A stretch of 64,000 nt of DNA from the NCBI RefSeq assembly GCF_019972115.1, contig NZ_BPFJ01000002.1, forward strand, positions 372,001 to 436,000, given 5' to 3'. A program made the translations under genes and the position numbers. The DNA is from Sulfurovum sp. TSL6 (GTDB lineage: Bacteria > Campylobacterota > Campylobacteria > Campylobacterales > Sulfurovaceae). The notes beneath the pieces were generated by a model. That model was not told the origin of the DNA, searched no databases, and saw only the letters and a list, made by a program, of their open reading frames with translations. Below, one piece after another: positions 24,604 through 30,256 of this stretch. Numbering within the stretch: position 1 is the first letter of the stretch; every line of letters starts with the position of its first letter.

Positions 24604-24798
24604 ATTTACCTAGATGTGGAATGTTTATAAAATTATAGTGGAAAGTGTTGAGAATAAGATTACCGATTACCCTATACTATGACTATATATGACGATTCAT
24701 CTATAAACACAATGAAGAAAAATAGTTATAGGTATTTTACTTTATGTACTCCATATGCAAGAATGATGGATTAGATGAACTTAAGAAAATTTTTTATA

Positions 24799-24818
24799 TA
24801 GTGTTCACTAGTTATAAT
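24799..24818 (+). promoter_or_regulatory. Promoter with TAGTG-tt-CACTA inverted repeat upstream of the superoxide reductase-like gene
   Basis: TATAAT at 24813-24818 lies 19 bases before the ATG. Immediately upstream is the inverted repeat TAGTG-TT-CACTA (24799-24810) in the spacer, a candidate operator where a dimeric repressor would block the polymerase. Confidence 0.45.
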
Positions 24819-24837
24819 CATAAAAAAAGGAATAGAG

Positions 24838-25266
24838 ATGAATAGAAGAGATGCATTAAAAGTTGCAGGTGTGACAGCAATGATGGCAGCAGTAAGTGCT
24901 GAAGCAAAAATGGGCGTAGCACATATGAATCGTATGGAGATGAAACCAAAAGATCCATCAAATATGGACAAAGGTGAACTCAAACACTCTCCACTTGTAA
25001 CACTAAAAGAAAAAGATGCCAATGGATATACACTAGTTGAGATCACTGTAGGTCAAGGTGGGATCATTCATCCAAGCACACCAGATCACTGGATTGACTT
25101 TATAGAGCTTTATGCAGATGATAAACTGGTAGGTAAAAGTACACTTGAACCAGAAATTTCACGTGGTGCAGCTTCATTTGCAGTGAAACTTGATAATGTC
25201 AAAGTATTAAAAGCAAAATCAGGTTGTAATCTACATGGTATTTGGACAACAACGGTAACATTATAA
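24838..25266 (+). CDS. Exported superoxide reductase-like (neelaredoxin/desulfoferrodoxin-type) protein
   Basis: The 142-residue protein begins MNRRDALKVAGVTAMM, a twin-arginine-like signal ending near SAEAK. The rest is a superoxide reductase-type iron domain with all the expected ligands: H50 (ELKHSPLV), H78 and H84 (IIHPSTPDHWIDFIEL), C130 and H133 (CNLHGIW), i.e. the His4-Cys site of class II enzymes without the N-terminal rubredoxin-like domain. Such enzymes reduce superoxide to peroxide without making oxygen. The Tat-type leader suggests a folded, metal-loaded periplasmic form. The closest alternative is an uncharacterised thiosulfate-oxidation SoxZ-like fold, but the ligand set favours superoxide reductase. 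A DUF3147-like membrane gene follows after 26 bases. Confidence 0.8.
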   Translation: MNRRDALKVAGVTAMMAAVSAEAKMGVAHMNRMEMKPKDPSNMDKGELKHSPLVTLKEKDANGYTLVEITVGQGGIIHPSTPDHWIDFIELYADDKLVGKSTLEPEISRGAASFAVKLDNVKVLKAKSGCNLHGIWTTTVTL

Positions 25267-25292
25267 TCTAATATAAACAAAGGAAGTGACCA

Positions 25293-25643
25293 TTGGCTTA
25301 CTATATAACAAAACTCGTTATTACTACGATTTTGATTGTATTGATATCTGAGATTTCCAAGAGAAGCAGTTTGATAGGTGCCATTTTGGCAGCTATCCCT
25401 TTGGTATCCATATTGGCTATGACATGGATGTATATAGACACAAACAGCAGCAACAAGGCAGTGGAGTTTTCACAAAACATTGTTTGGCTCATTGCCCCAT
25501 CCATGACACTGTTTATCTCTTTTCCTTTTCTAATAAAAAAAGGGCTCAGCTTTTATCCAAGTATGCTTATCTCGATCTTTTTAACTGTTTTTGCTTATTA
25601 CAGTGTCATCTTTCTTCTCCATAAATTAGGCATTAGAGCATAA
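25293..25643 (+). CDS. DUF3147 family membrane protein
   Basis: The 116-residue protein has four membrane segments: TKLVITTILIVLISEIS, IGAILAAIPLVSILAM, IVWLIAPSMTLFISF and a last one at 86-110. Pattern and length match the DUF3147 family, whose role is unknown. The start is TTG at 25293 with AGGAAG seven bases upstream; no ATG in frame precedes the first helix. It is 26 bases behind the superoxide reductase-like gene and likely co-transcribed, but there is no evidence for a functional link. Confidence 0.75.
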   Translation: MAYYITKLVITTILIVLISEISKRSSLIGAILAAIPLVSILAMTWMYIDTNSSNKAVEFSQNIVWLIAPSMTLFISFPFLIKKGLSFYPSMLISIFLTVFAYYSVIFLLHKLGIRA

Positions 25644-25726
25644 ATATTCAGATGTTTGTCCGACACCCTTTTGAGAGATGAAATGTACAAAATTTTACAA
25701 ATGATTGCCTTGATATAAGTCACTCT

Positions 25727-25944
25727 TTACAATGTCCTATGTGTTCCATCACAAAACGGAAGGTTTCCACTTTTTTACAGGCACACAGAGAATACTCCTT
25801 TGTTGTATCTACAGTAAATGGCTGTGGTTTATAGCTTGTACCTTTATGGGTGCCGTCACACAGTACTCCGTCTGCACTGTTACCACAAGTACAGAAATAG
25901 TGTGTTTTATTTGCTTCTAACTTGACTTTTACTGGTGTTGCCAT
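25727..25944 (-). pseudogene. Dual CDGSH iron-sulfur protein gene with a one-base frameshift
   Basis: The frame starting at 25944 encodes one full CDGSH motif, CTCGNSADGVLCDGTH, then YSLCACKK. It then runs into unrelated residues and stops at 25720 (74 residues). If one A is added to the A6 run (minus strand; T6 at 25771-25776), the frame continues CKKSGNLPFCDGTH and stops at 25727-25729, giving the second CDGSH motif of the usual dual-motif bacterial proteins (2Fe-2S, 3Cys-1His). The DNA is thus a two-motif gene broken by a one-base deletion in a homopolymer. It may be a true mutation, a slippage switch or a sequencing error. The single-motif product could still bind one cluster. Confidence 0.8.
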
Positions 25945-26392
25945 TATGTGTCCTTTTTTGACTGATTTATTTACTTACGGTTTTATACCTTCAATCTCAA
26001 GATTGGTCTTTACTTCATCACCTACAGCAGAGCCACCTCTTTTTAGTATTTTAAGGGAACAGCATGTTATAGGCTTTACGACTTATTGTACCATGAAGTT
26101 CAAATTCTGTGAATACAGAATCAGTACGCTATGCCAATAAGTCCATGCAACCTTTTAAAACAAAAAAGCAACGTACGCAATACAATATATCACTTTGTAC
26201 GGTTTTTTCTCGTAAGATTTTTTCTAATTTTTTCAATGAAAGACCCGAAGCATTTTTAAAACATATAAAAAGCTCTTATATCCGGTGCTTAATTACAATT
26301 CAACCTCCGATTCATCTAGTTTACATACAAAAAATTACTGCACAGGCATTACACACTTTCATAATATTCTATAAATAAAAAGGAGCATAATT
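25945..26392. other. 448-bp gap: YceI remnant and unassigned sequence
   Basis: The left third holds the remains of a YceI-family gene on the minus strand. From about 26116 to 26392 I see no convincing gene on either strand. An 89-codon frame at 26109-26378 has no ribosome-binding site or recognisable features. The last bases, AAAAGGAGCATAATT, provide the ribosome-binding site of the gene at 26393. Confidence 0.5.
25975..26115 (-). pseudogene. Remnant of a YceI-family periplasmic protein gene (3' end)
   Basis: On the minus strand one frame reads TEFELHGTISRKAYNMLF. After a frameshift the next reads KILKRGGSAVGDEVKTNLEI and ends EGIKP-stop at 25975. Together these give the C-terminal strands of a YceI-like lipid-binding beta barrel (pattern FELxGxIxRKxY...GGxAVGDEVxxxxxIEGxK). 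The upstream two thirds of the gene are missing. It lies just upstream of the frameshifted CDGSH gene, in the same orientation. Confidence 0.7.
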
Positions 26393-26611
26393 ATGAAAAG
26401 ATTAAACATTAAAAACATTTTAGTTGCTATTTCAGTTGCAGGAATGATGTCAGGATGTGCTCAGCCTGGCCCAAAAACACAAAAAGGTGCTCTGATTGGA
26501 GCCGGTACTGGAGCAGTGGTTGGTGCTGTATCTGGACGTTCAGTACTTAAATCAGCAGCCGTTGGTACAGCTATAGGTGCAGGTGTTGGATATTACGAAG
26601 ACACAAAATAA
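26393..26611 (+). CDS. Glycine-zipper lipoprotein
   Basis: The 72-residue precursor has a signal peptide with a lipobox (GMMSGC, lipidated Cys at about 22). A glycine-zipper segment follows: ALIGAGTGAVVGAVSGRSVL and GTAIGAGVGYYED, with Gly every three or four residues as in YMGG/OmpA-like glycine-zipper proteins. It is probably an outer-membrane-attached lipoprotein whose zipper inserts in or packs on the membrane. The ribosome-binding site AAAGGAG is strong. A terminator hairpin follows at 26636. Specific role unknown. Confidence 0.85.
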   Translation: MKRLNIKNILVAISVAGMMSGCAQPGPKTQKGALIGAGTGAVVGAVSGRSVLKSAAVGTAIGAGVGYYEDTK

Positions 26612-26635
26612 GATAAACACCCTTTTTAACAATCA

Positions 26636-26664
26636 GGAGAACTAGATTCTAATACAAGTTCTCC
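26636..26664 (+). terminator. Terminator after the glycine-zipper gene
   Basis: GGAGAACT (26636-26643) pairs with AGTTCTCC (26657-26664), an eight-base-pair perfect stem 25 bases after the stop. The T-run is absent, so strength is uncertain. Confidence 0.5.
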
Positions 26665-26743
26665 GATCTAACGCATAATAGAATTACTCTACTATACAAT
26701 CTACTTAAATTTTTAAATAAAATCTTTTTTAAAGTTTAGAAAC

Positions 26744-26921
26744 AAAAATCGGGACAAATTTGGGACAAAAGATTAGACCCGAGGGTCAAAAACTGGAAAA
26801 TATAAATATGTGAATTATTTTGATTAATCTTCAGGAAGTTAAGTAAATAAAGGATTTGTTGATAATTTGATTTGAATGGTGTCAAGAGAGGCACTTGAAC
26901 CCTCGACCTCCGGCTTATGAG
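26744..26921. repeat. Long direct repeat, copy A (contains 45-nt 3' half of a tRNA gene)
   Basis: This 178-bp block is closely similar, with a few substitutions and two short gaps, to 30063-30224 in the same orientation. Its right 45 bases (26877-26921) equal the 3' half of the CAU tRNA gene, from the anticodon loop to CCA, with one mismatch (C at 26892 for G at 30195). Beyond 26921 the rest of the tRNA is absent. The left 130 bases match the sequence downstream of the intact tRNA. It is an att-like scar. Confidence 0.85.
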
Positions 26922-27114
26922 TAAGCTAGATGAACTGACGATGTCCTACAGAACCCTTACGAAAGAGCTGTTTCATAAAACTATTGAGTCAAAAATGGGT
27001 CTTTTTTTGAAGTCTTTCAAGGTCGATTCAGCTAGGTTTCCTTAGACAAACTTTTTTGAGTTATACTTAAAATTATTTGAAATAACAATGATACTACCTA
27101 CCCGTTAAATCTGA

Positions 27115-27573
27115 TTATTCGTCAACAGATAAAGATGTAGATTTTAATTCTTCCATACATAATGCATTATCAACAATTCTTAAGTGCGGTCTTCCAACAA
27201 AAAATCCTACACCTACTTCACCTTTGATACAATACATTTTATTTGCCTGTGCATCAATTGTTACAGAACTTGTTGATTCTGTTTTTGCCCAAAACTCTAT
27301 TTCATCAGGTTTTGTCTTATATTTTAGATAACCACCACTCTTCAAATTACCTATTACGACATCAGATCCATCAGATTTTTTTGCATGTACATCATAAGTA
27401 ACTCCACCCCCAACAAAAGCAGAAGGTCGATAGACATATACTACACTCTTGTTTTTTTCAATTTTTTCCATTTCAGTAAACTTAGGACCTTTAGCTGAAC
27501 ATCCTAATAATAAAAAAGTACTACTCACCCCTATTATTACTAATGATGTAGATTTAAATATAGTTTTCATCAC
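27115..27573 (-). CDS. DUF2846-like lipoprotein
   Basis: The 152-residue precursor has a hydrophobic signal and lipobox (FLLLGCSA). The mature part contains SVVYVYRPSAFVGGGVTYDV and a later SGGYLKYKTKPDEIEFWA, the pattern of DUF2846 lipoproteins, small beta-rich envelope proteins of unknown role. Two Cys in the C-terminal part (MYCIKGEV and ALCMEEL) could form a disulfide. The first ATG (27573) overlaps the preceding lipoprotein gene stop by 4 nt (ATGA), so the pair is translated together. It lies in the segment bounded by the tRNA-associated repeats. Confidence 0.75.
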   Translation of the reverse strand: MMKTIFKSTSLVIIGVSSTFLLLGCSAKGPKFTEMEKIEKNKSVVYVYRPSAFVGGGVTYDVHAKKSDGSDVVIGNLKSGGYLKYKTKPDEIEFWAKTESTSSVTIDAQANKMYCIKGEVGVGFFVGRPHLRIVDNALCMEELKSTSLSVDE

Positions 27574-28082
27574 CTCTCCCTCTTTTTATATTTATTCGAA
27601 ATTTGTGTATCAATATTGTATCTTATTTTCAACAAACATTTTTTTCTATCTTCACTACTCCCACCGGTATCAAATAAGTTCCTTGTATCCTTTGCAACAC
27701 AAGAGGATTCATAGGTTTCTATCACTTTTCCATACTTTAATACAGTTAATTTTCCACTTACTAATAAATCTGATTCACTTAGTGGAAATCCTACAAAGAG
27801 CAAAGGATTAAATAAATTCAAGGCATCATGTTCTACACCTTCAGTATTGTATTTAACCGTATACCTATATCTAAGTGTAAGATTTGTATTACCTTTCTCT
27901 ATCATTGTAGGAAGATAGTCTTTATTAGTTTTATCATAATCTATTGTACCACTCAATAATGATTTTTTAGACACATGGGTATCTTTTACATCGGGTTTTA
28001 CTATAATTGTTGATGTTGCACAGCCTGTAAACATAAGTATTATGCTTAGGAAGAGTATAAAAGCTTTTCCGTACTTATCCAT
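27570..28082 (-). CDS. Lipoprotein of unknown function
   Basis: The 170-residue precursor has a signal peptide and a lipobox, LMFTGCATS (Cys at about 21). The mature region has a motif-poor, beta-strand-like character: TLRYRYTVKYN, DLLVSGKLTVLKYGK, then two Cys (SSCVAKD and KKCLLKI) that could pair. I do not recognise a family. It is the first gene of a two-gene unit with the DUF2846-like lipoprotein (4-nt overlap), divergent from the delta-60 lipoprotein at 28329. Probably both coat the periplasmic side of the outer membrane. Confidence 0.7.
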   Translation of the reverse strand: MDKYGKAFILFLSIILMFTGCATSTIIVKPDVKDTHVSKKSLLSGTIDYDKTNKDYLPTMIEKGNTNLTLRYRYTVKYNTEGVEHDALNLFNPLLFVGFPLSESDLLVSGKLTVLKYGKVIETYESSCVAKDTRNLFDTGGSSEDRKKCLLKIRYNIDTQISNKYKKRER

Positions 28083-28328
28083 ATTTATCCTTCCTAAGTT
28101 CTTATTTTTTAATTATAGACTAATTCTTGAAATGAATTAAAGGTAAAACATTTATTCTTCTCTCAACATACCATTTTAAGACACTAAGAACTAGATTCTT
28201 GTCCATATGAGTTGTTGGTCAGGTACGTTCAAAGACCTACAGAAAAAAGATTTGTGGCTATACTATAATTTTATATTACGATATTATATTAATATAGTAA
28301 TATTATAAATAGTTAAAAGGAAATAATT
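28083..28328. promoter_or_regulatory. Divergent promoter region between the lipoprotein pair and the delta-60 lipoprotein
   Basis: This 246-bp stretch separates two divergent transcription units. The right 60 bases are almost pure A/T (ATTATATTAATATAG, TATTATAAATAG), with -10-like TATAAA ahead of AAAAGGAAATAATT at 28329. GAACTAGATTCT near 28190 also occurs at 26639, the terminator loop of the glycine-zipper gene. No ORF is seen. Confidence 0.45.
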
Positions 28329-29975
28329 ATGAAACCATTTAAAATACTTTTACTTACAAGTATCGGAATACTTATCACAGCATGTGGTGGAAGTGGTGGA
28401 AGTAGTAGTGAACCAATGCCAGAACCAGTGCCAGAGGGCGTGAGTCCTGTCATTTCAAACTTAAATATTGTTACACCAGTTTCAGCAACAATCAATGAAG
28501 GAAAGGGATCGACATATATTGGTGGTACTTTTGATTTTGTAGACCCTGATGGTGATGTAGTTACTGTTAGGTTAACCACGTCCAGCGGTGCAGATATCTC
28601 TACAAATATTACACCGGGAGCTACTAGTGGTACACTTGAAGCATTTTATGAAGTTTCGACAGTATTAGCAGGTTCTTATAATTATAATATTTGGGTTGAA
28701 GATAGTCAGGGTAACGATTCTAATGTATTTTCAGGTACCTATACTGTAACAGAGGACCTTGATGTCTCTTTTGGTCAAGAAGGTATTGTCATTTTTGATG
28801 ATGCAGCGAGTGGTTTTGATGAAGAAGCTTTAGGCTCTGTGTTACAGAGTGATGGGAAAATTGTCGTAGTTGGGAGACAATACAATGGTTTAAATGATGA
28901 TGTTCTTGTTCAGAGATATACTACTGATGGCTCATTAGATACAAATTTTGCTAATAATGGTACACTTGTTTATAATAGTGGAGATCATGAAATAGCATAC
29001 GATGTTGCTTTGCAAAACGATGGTAAAATTATTTTAGTTGGATACATTAGAGAATTTGGTGCAGGAGAGAAAAATATCCTGATTATACGTTTAAATACAG
29101 ATGGAACCTACGACACAACATTTGGTGGAGATGGTATTGTCACGACCAATGTTAGTGAATATGGTGAGTACGGATATGCCATAGCTATACAAGGTGATGG
29201 CAAGATAATTATAGCCGGAGAAGTATCAATTGGTGGGGCCGATGTGCAGGCACTAATAGCTAGATATAACAGTGATGGTACAATAGATAACACTTTTGGA
29301 AGCGCAGGGATAACCACATATGATGGTATTGGTTGGGATATTGCATACGGGGTTACTGTTCAGCCTGATGGGAAGATTGTAACTACAGGAAGTACATCTG
29401 AAGAAGCTTACCCTGGTGTAGCATTGACTGACCTATTGTTATTACGACTTAATACAGATGGAACTCCAGATGATACATTTGGAACTAATGGTGTAGTAAC
29501 GTATAATAGTATTTATGAATCAGGAAGAGCAGTACGTATACAAAATGATGGAAAAATTATTGTTGCTGGGACAAGGTGGTCTTATTCTAGTATTGAGAAT
29601 GCAGCATTATTGATACGCTACAACAGTGATGGTAGTATGGATACTACTTTTGCAGAAAACGGGGTATTAATATACAAAAAAGAGTACGGTTTTCCTTCAA
29701 TCGCAGGTCATGCCATAAGTTTATTGGATAATGGCGAAATTGTAATGGCTGGCTTTGTTAATACTGATGGTTTTGTAATACGTGTTACTAATGATGGCAT
29801 ATATGATAATACATTAAGTATTGATGGAATCAGTGCTGTTGTGAGTGGTGGATATGCACAGTTGAAAAGTGTACTGGTACAAAGTGATGGGAAAATTGTT
29901 GTAGCTGGTAATAGTACATTGCATGATAACTACAGTGACAAAGCCCTTTTCTTGGCAAGGTTGACTGGAGATTAA
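28329..29975 (+). CDS. Delta-60 repeat lipoprotein
   Basis: The 548-residue precursor has a signal peptide and lipobox (LITACGGSG, Cys 19). A Ser/Pro/Glu-rich linker and a beta-sandwich-like domain (about 35-140) follow. Then come about seven to eight delta-60 repeats, each of the type QSDGKIVVVGR, then a strand, then RYTTDGSLDTNFANNGTLV. These roughly 55-residue repeats (SDGKI...DTTFGxxGxxT) probably form one beta-propeller-like disc on the cell surface or in the periplasm. Large delta-60 proteins are common in Bacteroidota and some Gammaproteobacteria; function is unproven. It is AT-rich and lies in the repeat-bounded segment, consistent with recent gain. Confidence 0.85.
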   Translation: MKPFKILLLTSIGILITACGGSGGSSSEPMPEPVPEGVSPVISNLNIVTPVSATINEGKGSTYIGGTFDFVDPDGDVVTVRLTTSSGADISTNITPGATSGTLEAFYEVSTVLAGSYNYNIWVEDSQGNDSNVFSGTYTVTEDLDVSFGQEGIVIFDDAASGFDEEALGSVLQSDGKIVVVGRQYNGLNDDVLVQRYTTDGSLDTNFANNGTLVYNSGDHEIAYDVALQNDGKIILVGYIREFGAGEKNILIIRLNTDGTYDTTFGGDGIVTTNVSEYGEYGYAIAIQGDGKIIIAGEVSIGGADVQALIARYNSDGTIDNTFGSAGITTYDGIGWDIAYGVTVQPDGKIVTTGSTSEEAYPGVALTDLLLLRLNTDGTPDDTFGTNGVVTYNSIYESGRAVRIQNDGKIIVAGTRWSYSSIENAALLIRYNSDGSMDTTFAENGVLIYKKEYGFPSIAGHAISLLDNGEIVMAGFVNTDGFVIRVTNDGIYDNTLSIDGISAVVSGGYAQLKSVLVQSDGKIVVAGNSTLHDNYSDKALFLARLTGD

Positions 29976-30062
29976 AATCGTAAGTTCATACAATTAATTG
30001 AGTTTTATAGATAGAAATACTGTCTGACTTCATAGATTTAAAATGACATTTTTATTCGGGTC

Positions 30063-30224
30063 AAAAATCGGGACAAAAAATTAGACCTGCGGCTCAAAAA
30101 CTGAAAAATACAAATACGTGCATTATTTTGATAAATCTTCAGGAAGTTAAGTAAATAAGGGGATTGTTGATAATTTGAATGGTGTCAAGAGAGGGACTTG
30201 AACCCTCGACCTCCGGCTTATGAG
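30063..30224. repeat. Long direct repeat, copy B (overlaps the intact tRNA 3' half)
   Basis: This 162-bp block matches 26744-26921 in direct orientation. It covers the tRNA 3' half (30180-30224) and the 117 bases beyond the tRNA 3' end. The shared flank includes AAAAATCGGGACAAA and CTTCAGGAAGTTAAGTAAAT. Copies A and B bound a segment of about 3.1 kb. Confidence 0.85.
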
Positions 30225-30256
30225 ACCAGCGCTCTAACCAGCTGAGCTACCTTGAC
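30180..30256 (-). tRNA. tRNA with CAU anticodon (tRNA-Met, or Ile2)
   Basis: A 77-nt cloverleaf on the minus strand with encoded CCA. The acceptor arms GTCAAGG and TCTTGAC pair (one G-U). The D loop is AGCTGGTTA, the anticodon loop CTCATAA with CAU at 30222-30220, and the T loop GTTCAAGTC. The acceptor first pair is G-C, so it is not an initiator tRNA. Elongator Met is the simplest reading; an Ile tRNA with lysidine at C34 cannot be excluded. Its 3' half is repeated at 26877-26921. Confidence 0.95.

Follow-up and report, generated by a model that had tools for sequence, protein, structure and literature searches.

The window analysed here, a 64,000-nucleotide stretch of the Sulfurovum sp. TSL6 genome, contains a complete CAU tRNA gene annotated as tRNA-Met at 30180-30256 on the minus strand (ARAGORN and Rfam), the one tRNA found in the window. 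Its 3′ half (30180-30224, minus strand) recurs at 26877-26921 on the same strand, from the anticodon loop to CCA, with a single mismatch (44 of 45 nt), and no third copy of the half tRNA occurs in the window, the next best place having 20 mismatches. Together with about 125 bp of downstream DNA, the half tRNA is present twice in direct orientation, at 26744-26921 and 30056-30224; the two copies align without gaps at 98% identity across a 52-nt core and at 88% across 115 nt of flank, and the repeat ends precisely in the anticodon loop (CTTATGAG). An earlier, sequence-only reading had described this doubling, with the complete tRNA at the right copy only, and the alignment and the single tRNA call bear it out; its limits for the left copy stand, whereas the right copy, which it began at 30063, is traceable with the arm model from about 30056. 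No additional copy of the repeat lies to the left of 26744 in the window, and a search of the whole genome with the left copy as query returned the query itself and the right copy (E 6.4e-56), with nothing further better than E 0.03.

Conserved non-coding arms adjoin the half tRNA on either side. The outer P′ arm of the left copy (26744-26876, plus strand) bears GGGACAAA iterons, with GGGACAA at 26751-26757 and 26762-26768, and its counterpart beside the tRNA 3′ end (30056-30179, plus strand) carries GGGACAA at 30070-30076; in an alignment of seven genomes, the P′ arm is about 125 bp long and has two GGGACAA-type iterons at its outer end, in invariable placement. The P arm on the inner side of the left core (26922-27085, plus strand; about 160 bp) had been overlooked in the earlier reading. 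It contains GAGTCAAA (26986), AGACAAA-type motifs and a GGGTCTTTTTTT run, and is conserved in five other genomes, with copies in the window, G018 (two), G028, G075 (two), G076 and G017 (two). Models of both arms, run against 175 genomes of the family, matched the known copies, a possible distant one in G066, where similar DNA surrounds the half tRNA, and otherwise weak candidates; all the strong P arms follow a half tRNA and all the strong P′ arms precede one, in a single shared orientation. The att pattern had no match in viral contigs. A core with arms that carry short repeated binding sites is the architecture of integrase attachment sites; the paired repeats 26744-26921 and 30056-30224 are, judged by their sequence, att sites, presumably still functional, and the iterons of the P′ arm are probable integrase binding sites.

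Another reading of the outer end of the P′ arm was tried, as the tail of an integrase gene (frame ...NRDKFGTKD-stop, 26744-26775), which would agree with the common arrangement in which an integrase gene ends in the arm sites. However, no integrase runs into the arm in any compared genome and the frame is not kept in the right copy, so that iterons are the safer reading; 26744-26775 may be the remnant of a very old integrase tail. Further to the left, an 84-bp stretch beside a glycine-zipper gene (26239-26322, on its left) is 77-83% identical to stretches left of two P′ arms in G075 and may belong to the element end as well. A complete att copy, with P′ arm, half tRNA and P arm, was also found in G017 on contig 23 (L046 10667-11002), within about 3-4 kb of ilvC and away from any tRNA on the contig, and would be either a dispersed copy or an assembly join.

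Three lipoprotein genes and nothing else make up the gene content of the segment. The first (27115-27573, minus strand) resembles DUF2846, as had been noted before, at a score (24.9 bits) below the Pfam cut-off of 34.3 bits; the second (27570-28082, minus strand) belongs to no known family; and the third (28329-29975, plus strand) encodes six delta-60 (DUF5122) beta-propeller repeats. Among 77 other Sulfurovum genomes, the first two proteins have no close relative, the sole match being a 31%-identical relative of the first, and the delta-60 protein has just distant relatives in two genomes, 33-43% identical to its repeat part. The genes had been called accessory and AT-rich: their absence from relatives agrees with the former, while the latter holds weakly, the G+C content of the cargo being 33.8% against 37.5 ± 3.1% for equal windows, a mild bias, with the delta-60 gene at the window average. 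No PADLOC model matched the cargo in a search for a defence function, and the export of the lipoproteins suggests a role in the cell envelope.

In nearly all the relatives, the tRNA neighbours groES and groEL, with serS on its other side. The interval between the tRNA and serS measures 5.58 kb in the window, 2.4-13 kb elsewhere and more than 34 kb in G018, and empty sites were found in G036 and G049, where the tRNA 3′ end is 68 and 80 bp from serS, respectively, with no trace of an arm in the flank. This comparison indicates that the whole serS-to-tRNA stretch of the window (24604-30179) is accessory, and that the interval is an integration hotspot. In other Sulfurovum genomes, the arm-core-arm unit at this tRNA encloses quite different cargo. 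G035 shares with the window the left flank up to the start of the arm (453 bp at 93.6%) and the right flank beyond the tRNA, and its slot is occupied by 1.8 kb of different genes, for a Sel1-repeat protein and one other. No relative was found to keep both repeats and all the enclosed genes in synteny.

Such comparisons also bear on another option that the sequence-only reading had left standing: the tRNA 3′ end and the adjoining flank were duplicated in tandem, and the copies were afterwards separated by an insertion or replacement of DNA, no site-specific recombination being involved. The repeat does run about 125 bp beyond the tRNA end, and a real duplication exists at the same locus in G029; that case is nevertheless unlike the one in the window, comprising a whole tRNA with identical flanks on both sides. 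The break here falls precisely within the anticodon loop, where crossovers are known to occur; the P′ arm is missing from the flank of the empty sites; and, on its inner side, the left half tRNA adjoins the arm that also stands beside internal half tRNAs of G018, G028, G075, G076 and G017. A duplication would not produce this conserved inner P arm, and the explanation is therefore rejected as extremely improbable.

The genomes G075 and G076 are 98% identical on both sides of the site and differ by a 3.4-kb insertion at the tRNA in G075, which begins 23 nt inside the tRNA 3′ end and extends to the arm at the tRNA. The insertion contains another P arm together with an eroded half tRNA (L044 8046-8223), so that G075 has at least two stacked layers and the insertion is composite. 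The outer junction, at 23 nt, falls in the T loop rather than the anticodon loop, at the same place as that of an unrelated 13-kb island with its own integrase at this tRNA in G053; these T-loop junctions indicate that different kinds of integrase use different parts of one tRNA. Whether it arose by gain or by loss, the difference between G075 and G076 would need recombination in the tRNA core. This bears on a second alternative, in which homologous recombination put the segment in place or exchanged it, either between the arm repeats within resident arrays or between an array and incoming DNA, with no integrase taking part. The arms are long and 77-88% alike, the content of the slot varies among relatives and G035 retains, of the left arm, just 17 bp at the outer end, all of which would suit it; nevertheless, arms at 80-88% are poor substrates, and the G076 arm is 98% identical to the middle arm of G075 along its entire length, which places the crossover at the tRNA core or within it. 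We consider homologous recombination quite improbable.

No integrase gene was found inside the segment, where none of the integrase matches of the genome falls, and tblastn with four kinds of integrase (the two IntA proteins described below and those of G053 and G028) detected no remnant in the window. Absence today, as stated before, thus stands; the loss that had been assumed to explain it is presumptive, no remnant being detectable. With no integrase present, the unit is non-autonomous. Integrase-bearing elements occur in G018 (Sulfurovum sp. GLR145), where three att sites on contig 76 (WTAE01000068) delimit tandem elements of 19.2 and 14.8 kb (E1 and E2). Each encodes one tyrosine integrase (PF00589; 402 and 401 aa), and these two proteins (IntA) are 68% identical to each other, the next best relative in the family being at 36%; they are located mid-element rather than beside an att site, which is unusual. 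The elements also encode a cytosine methylase, a UvrD helicase, a DUF5906 protein, a type B DNA polymerase and an HNH nuclease. The half-tRNA cores of G018 match the variant tRNA of that genome, as expected if the displaced half derives from the host.

The arms and core of G018 can be aligned with those of the window, at 76% over 266 bp in a plain search with no model and at E 1.6e-43 (P arm) and about 1e-30 (P′ arm) with arm models that were built on all the copies, those of the window included. Given P′ arms that are 58-65% identical to those of the window, integrase specificity may differ between the two. IntA relatives were found neither in the genome of the window at E 1e-15 nor in viral contigs, and those in genome contigs were confined to the record of G018 itself. 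With no relative in the genome and no remnant in the segment, the link to an integrase comes from G018 only (like G017, a fragmented assembly), by analogy with which an IntA-type integrase would act on the arms of the window. In E2 (L041 6012-7893), two adjacent frames beside the integrase resemble a 3′-5′ exonuclease and a viral or organellar type B DNA polymerase, which suggests a self-replicating integrative element. A 610-aa protein of G028 (L043 10233-12065), weakly similar to DUF6538 and not matched by PF00589, adjoins the tRNA of a 16-kb layer, the expected place of an integrase, and is possibly a divergent one.

The repeats, both arms, the empty sites, the exchange of slot content and the integrase-bearing tandem pair of G018 are directly observed. 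In our reading, 26922-30179 is very probably a small att-bounded island that entered by the site-specific action of a tyrosine integrase at the anticodon loop and is now a non-autonomous unit of the CIME type. The integrase would have cut the CAU tRNA in its anticodon loop and joined to it a circular element with a substitute 3′ half in attP. The incoming att site would thereby have supplied the replacement 3′ half (30180-30224) and the P′ arm (30056-30179), restoring the tRNA, while the original 3′ half would have been displaced by 3.3 kb to 26877-26921, still attached to the P′ arm that an older island had brought to this site. The P arm 26922-27085 would be the other end of the island, and 26744-27085 would comprise an older P′ arm, the displaced core and the new P arm. 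The older P′ arm indicates an earlier related element at the same site, whose far end was not found in the window. The island could leave or move only with a compatible integrase, for example one brought by a new element that integrates into this tRNA. It is evidently one of several small mobile islands layered at a site that receives one integration after another. Weighing against the reading are the divergent P′ arms and mid-element integrases of G018, the lack of an IntA relative or remnant in the window's genome and segment, and the composite G075 insertion with its T-loop junction. Integration into the tRNA 3′ end, and the proposal of related elements in tandem there, had both been put forward from the sequence of the window, and the arms, the empty sites, the other genes in the slot of G035, the absence of the cargo from relatives and the tandem elements of G018 support them.

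The small segments could instead be cassettes that were non-autonomous from the start and are mobilised in trans by integrases that larger elements sharing these att sites provide. Most units are 1.8-5.7 kb and show no integrase or remnant (those of the window, G035 and G076, the inner one of G028 and two of G075), integrase-bearing units occur in G018 only, all the small units retain both arms, and the composite 3.4-kb difference between G075 and G076 includes a 2.4-kb integrase-less unit. However, deletion of a mid-element integrase would look alike, no identical cassette was found at two places or in two distant genomes, and no trans mobilisation has been observed. We regard this origin as rather unlikely. 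By extension, Sulfurovum might hold a pool of 2-6 kb att-bounded, integrase-less cassettes that rare integrase-bearing elements move in trans into one tRNA, an idea that we rate as doubtful; if true, the pool would be a tRNA-based counterpart of a cassette array.

Of the known systems, CIMEs are defined as lacking integration and transfer genes while keeping attL and attR, and their tandem accretion at tRNA 3′ ends has been described (PMC5704250). The segment resembles them in having neither integration nor transfer genes, in keeping a core and arms at both ends, as far as sequence tells, and in sharing its tRNA 3′ end with another, tandem layer; it differs in being just 3.3 kb long, in that no parental ICE or IME carrying this cargo was identified among the 77 Sulfurovum genomes and in being known from sequence alone. 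Tandem islands at ssrA in Dehalococcoides, 15 of them without an integration module and suggested to be cis-mobilizable (PMC3146451), likewise show direct repeats of the 3′ end of the target and are often integrase-less; their site is the T loop of tmRNA and their integrase, DsiB, is related to CcrB (PMC3146451), whereas the site here is the anticodon loop of a CAU tRNA and the integrase in G018 is a tyrosine integrase. Anticodon-centred tDNA islands are a common class, and those collected in Islander span 2-200 kb (PMC4383910). The segment shares with them an intact tDNA, a displaced 3′ fragment downstream in the same orientation and a crossover in the anticodon loop, but Islander requires an integrase gene inside the island (PMC4383910), and the segment has none. 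E1 and E2 of G018 agree with it in tRNA, core, orientation and arms recognisable by sequence, and differ in their length of 15-19 kb and in carrying a tyrosine integrase and replication and restriction genes.

The island is thus of a kind already known, an ordinary genomic island, of which the member in the window is new; less usual are the smallness of most units and the good preservation of both arms. A literature search turned up no study of such a hotspot in Sulfurovum. The analysis documents one beside groESL, with the att core and both arms defined by comparison, and overturns nothing established. The att sites are unusually clear, and empty, filled and stacked states are present in related genomes, so that the locus lends itself readily to testing trans movement of small integrase-less islands. 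The hotspot also accounts, for annotation purposes, for differences between species at this tRNA region.

Several further features of the hotspot were observed in relatives. The duplication in G029 (L055 6565-9200) is a genuine tandem copy of groES-tRNA-serS in which groEL and serS are present as broken copies. Its second tRNA is complete, but the anticodon region is shifted and is read by ARAGORN as Arg(TCT). A complete, strongly diverged second CAU tRNA lies within a hotspot cassette in both G075 (L044 3523-3599) and G076 (L045 6465-6541). The hotspot tRNA itself is identical or nearly so in most other relatives, and departs from the usual sequence by 14 bases in G004 (L050 9274-9350) and by 7 in G009 (L052 8906-8982), variants that were possibly replaced through integration. 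In G028 (L042 4962-8837), seven adjacent small secreted-type proteins with a common 'NGHTLPPEPDPKINNSTLLG' form a tandem paralog array, which makes up most of one integrase-less cassette.
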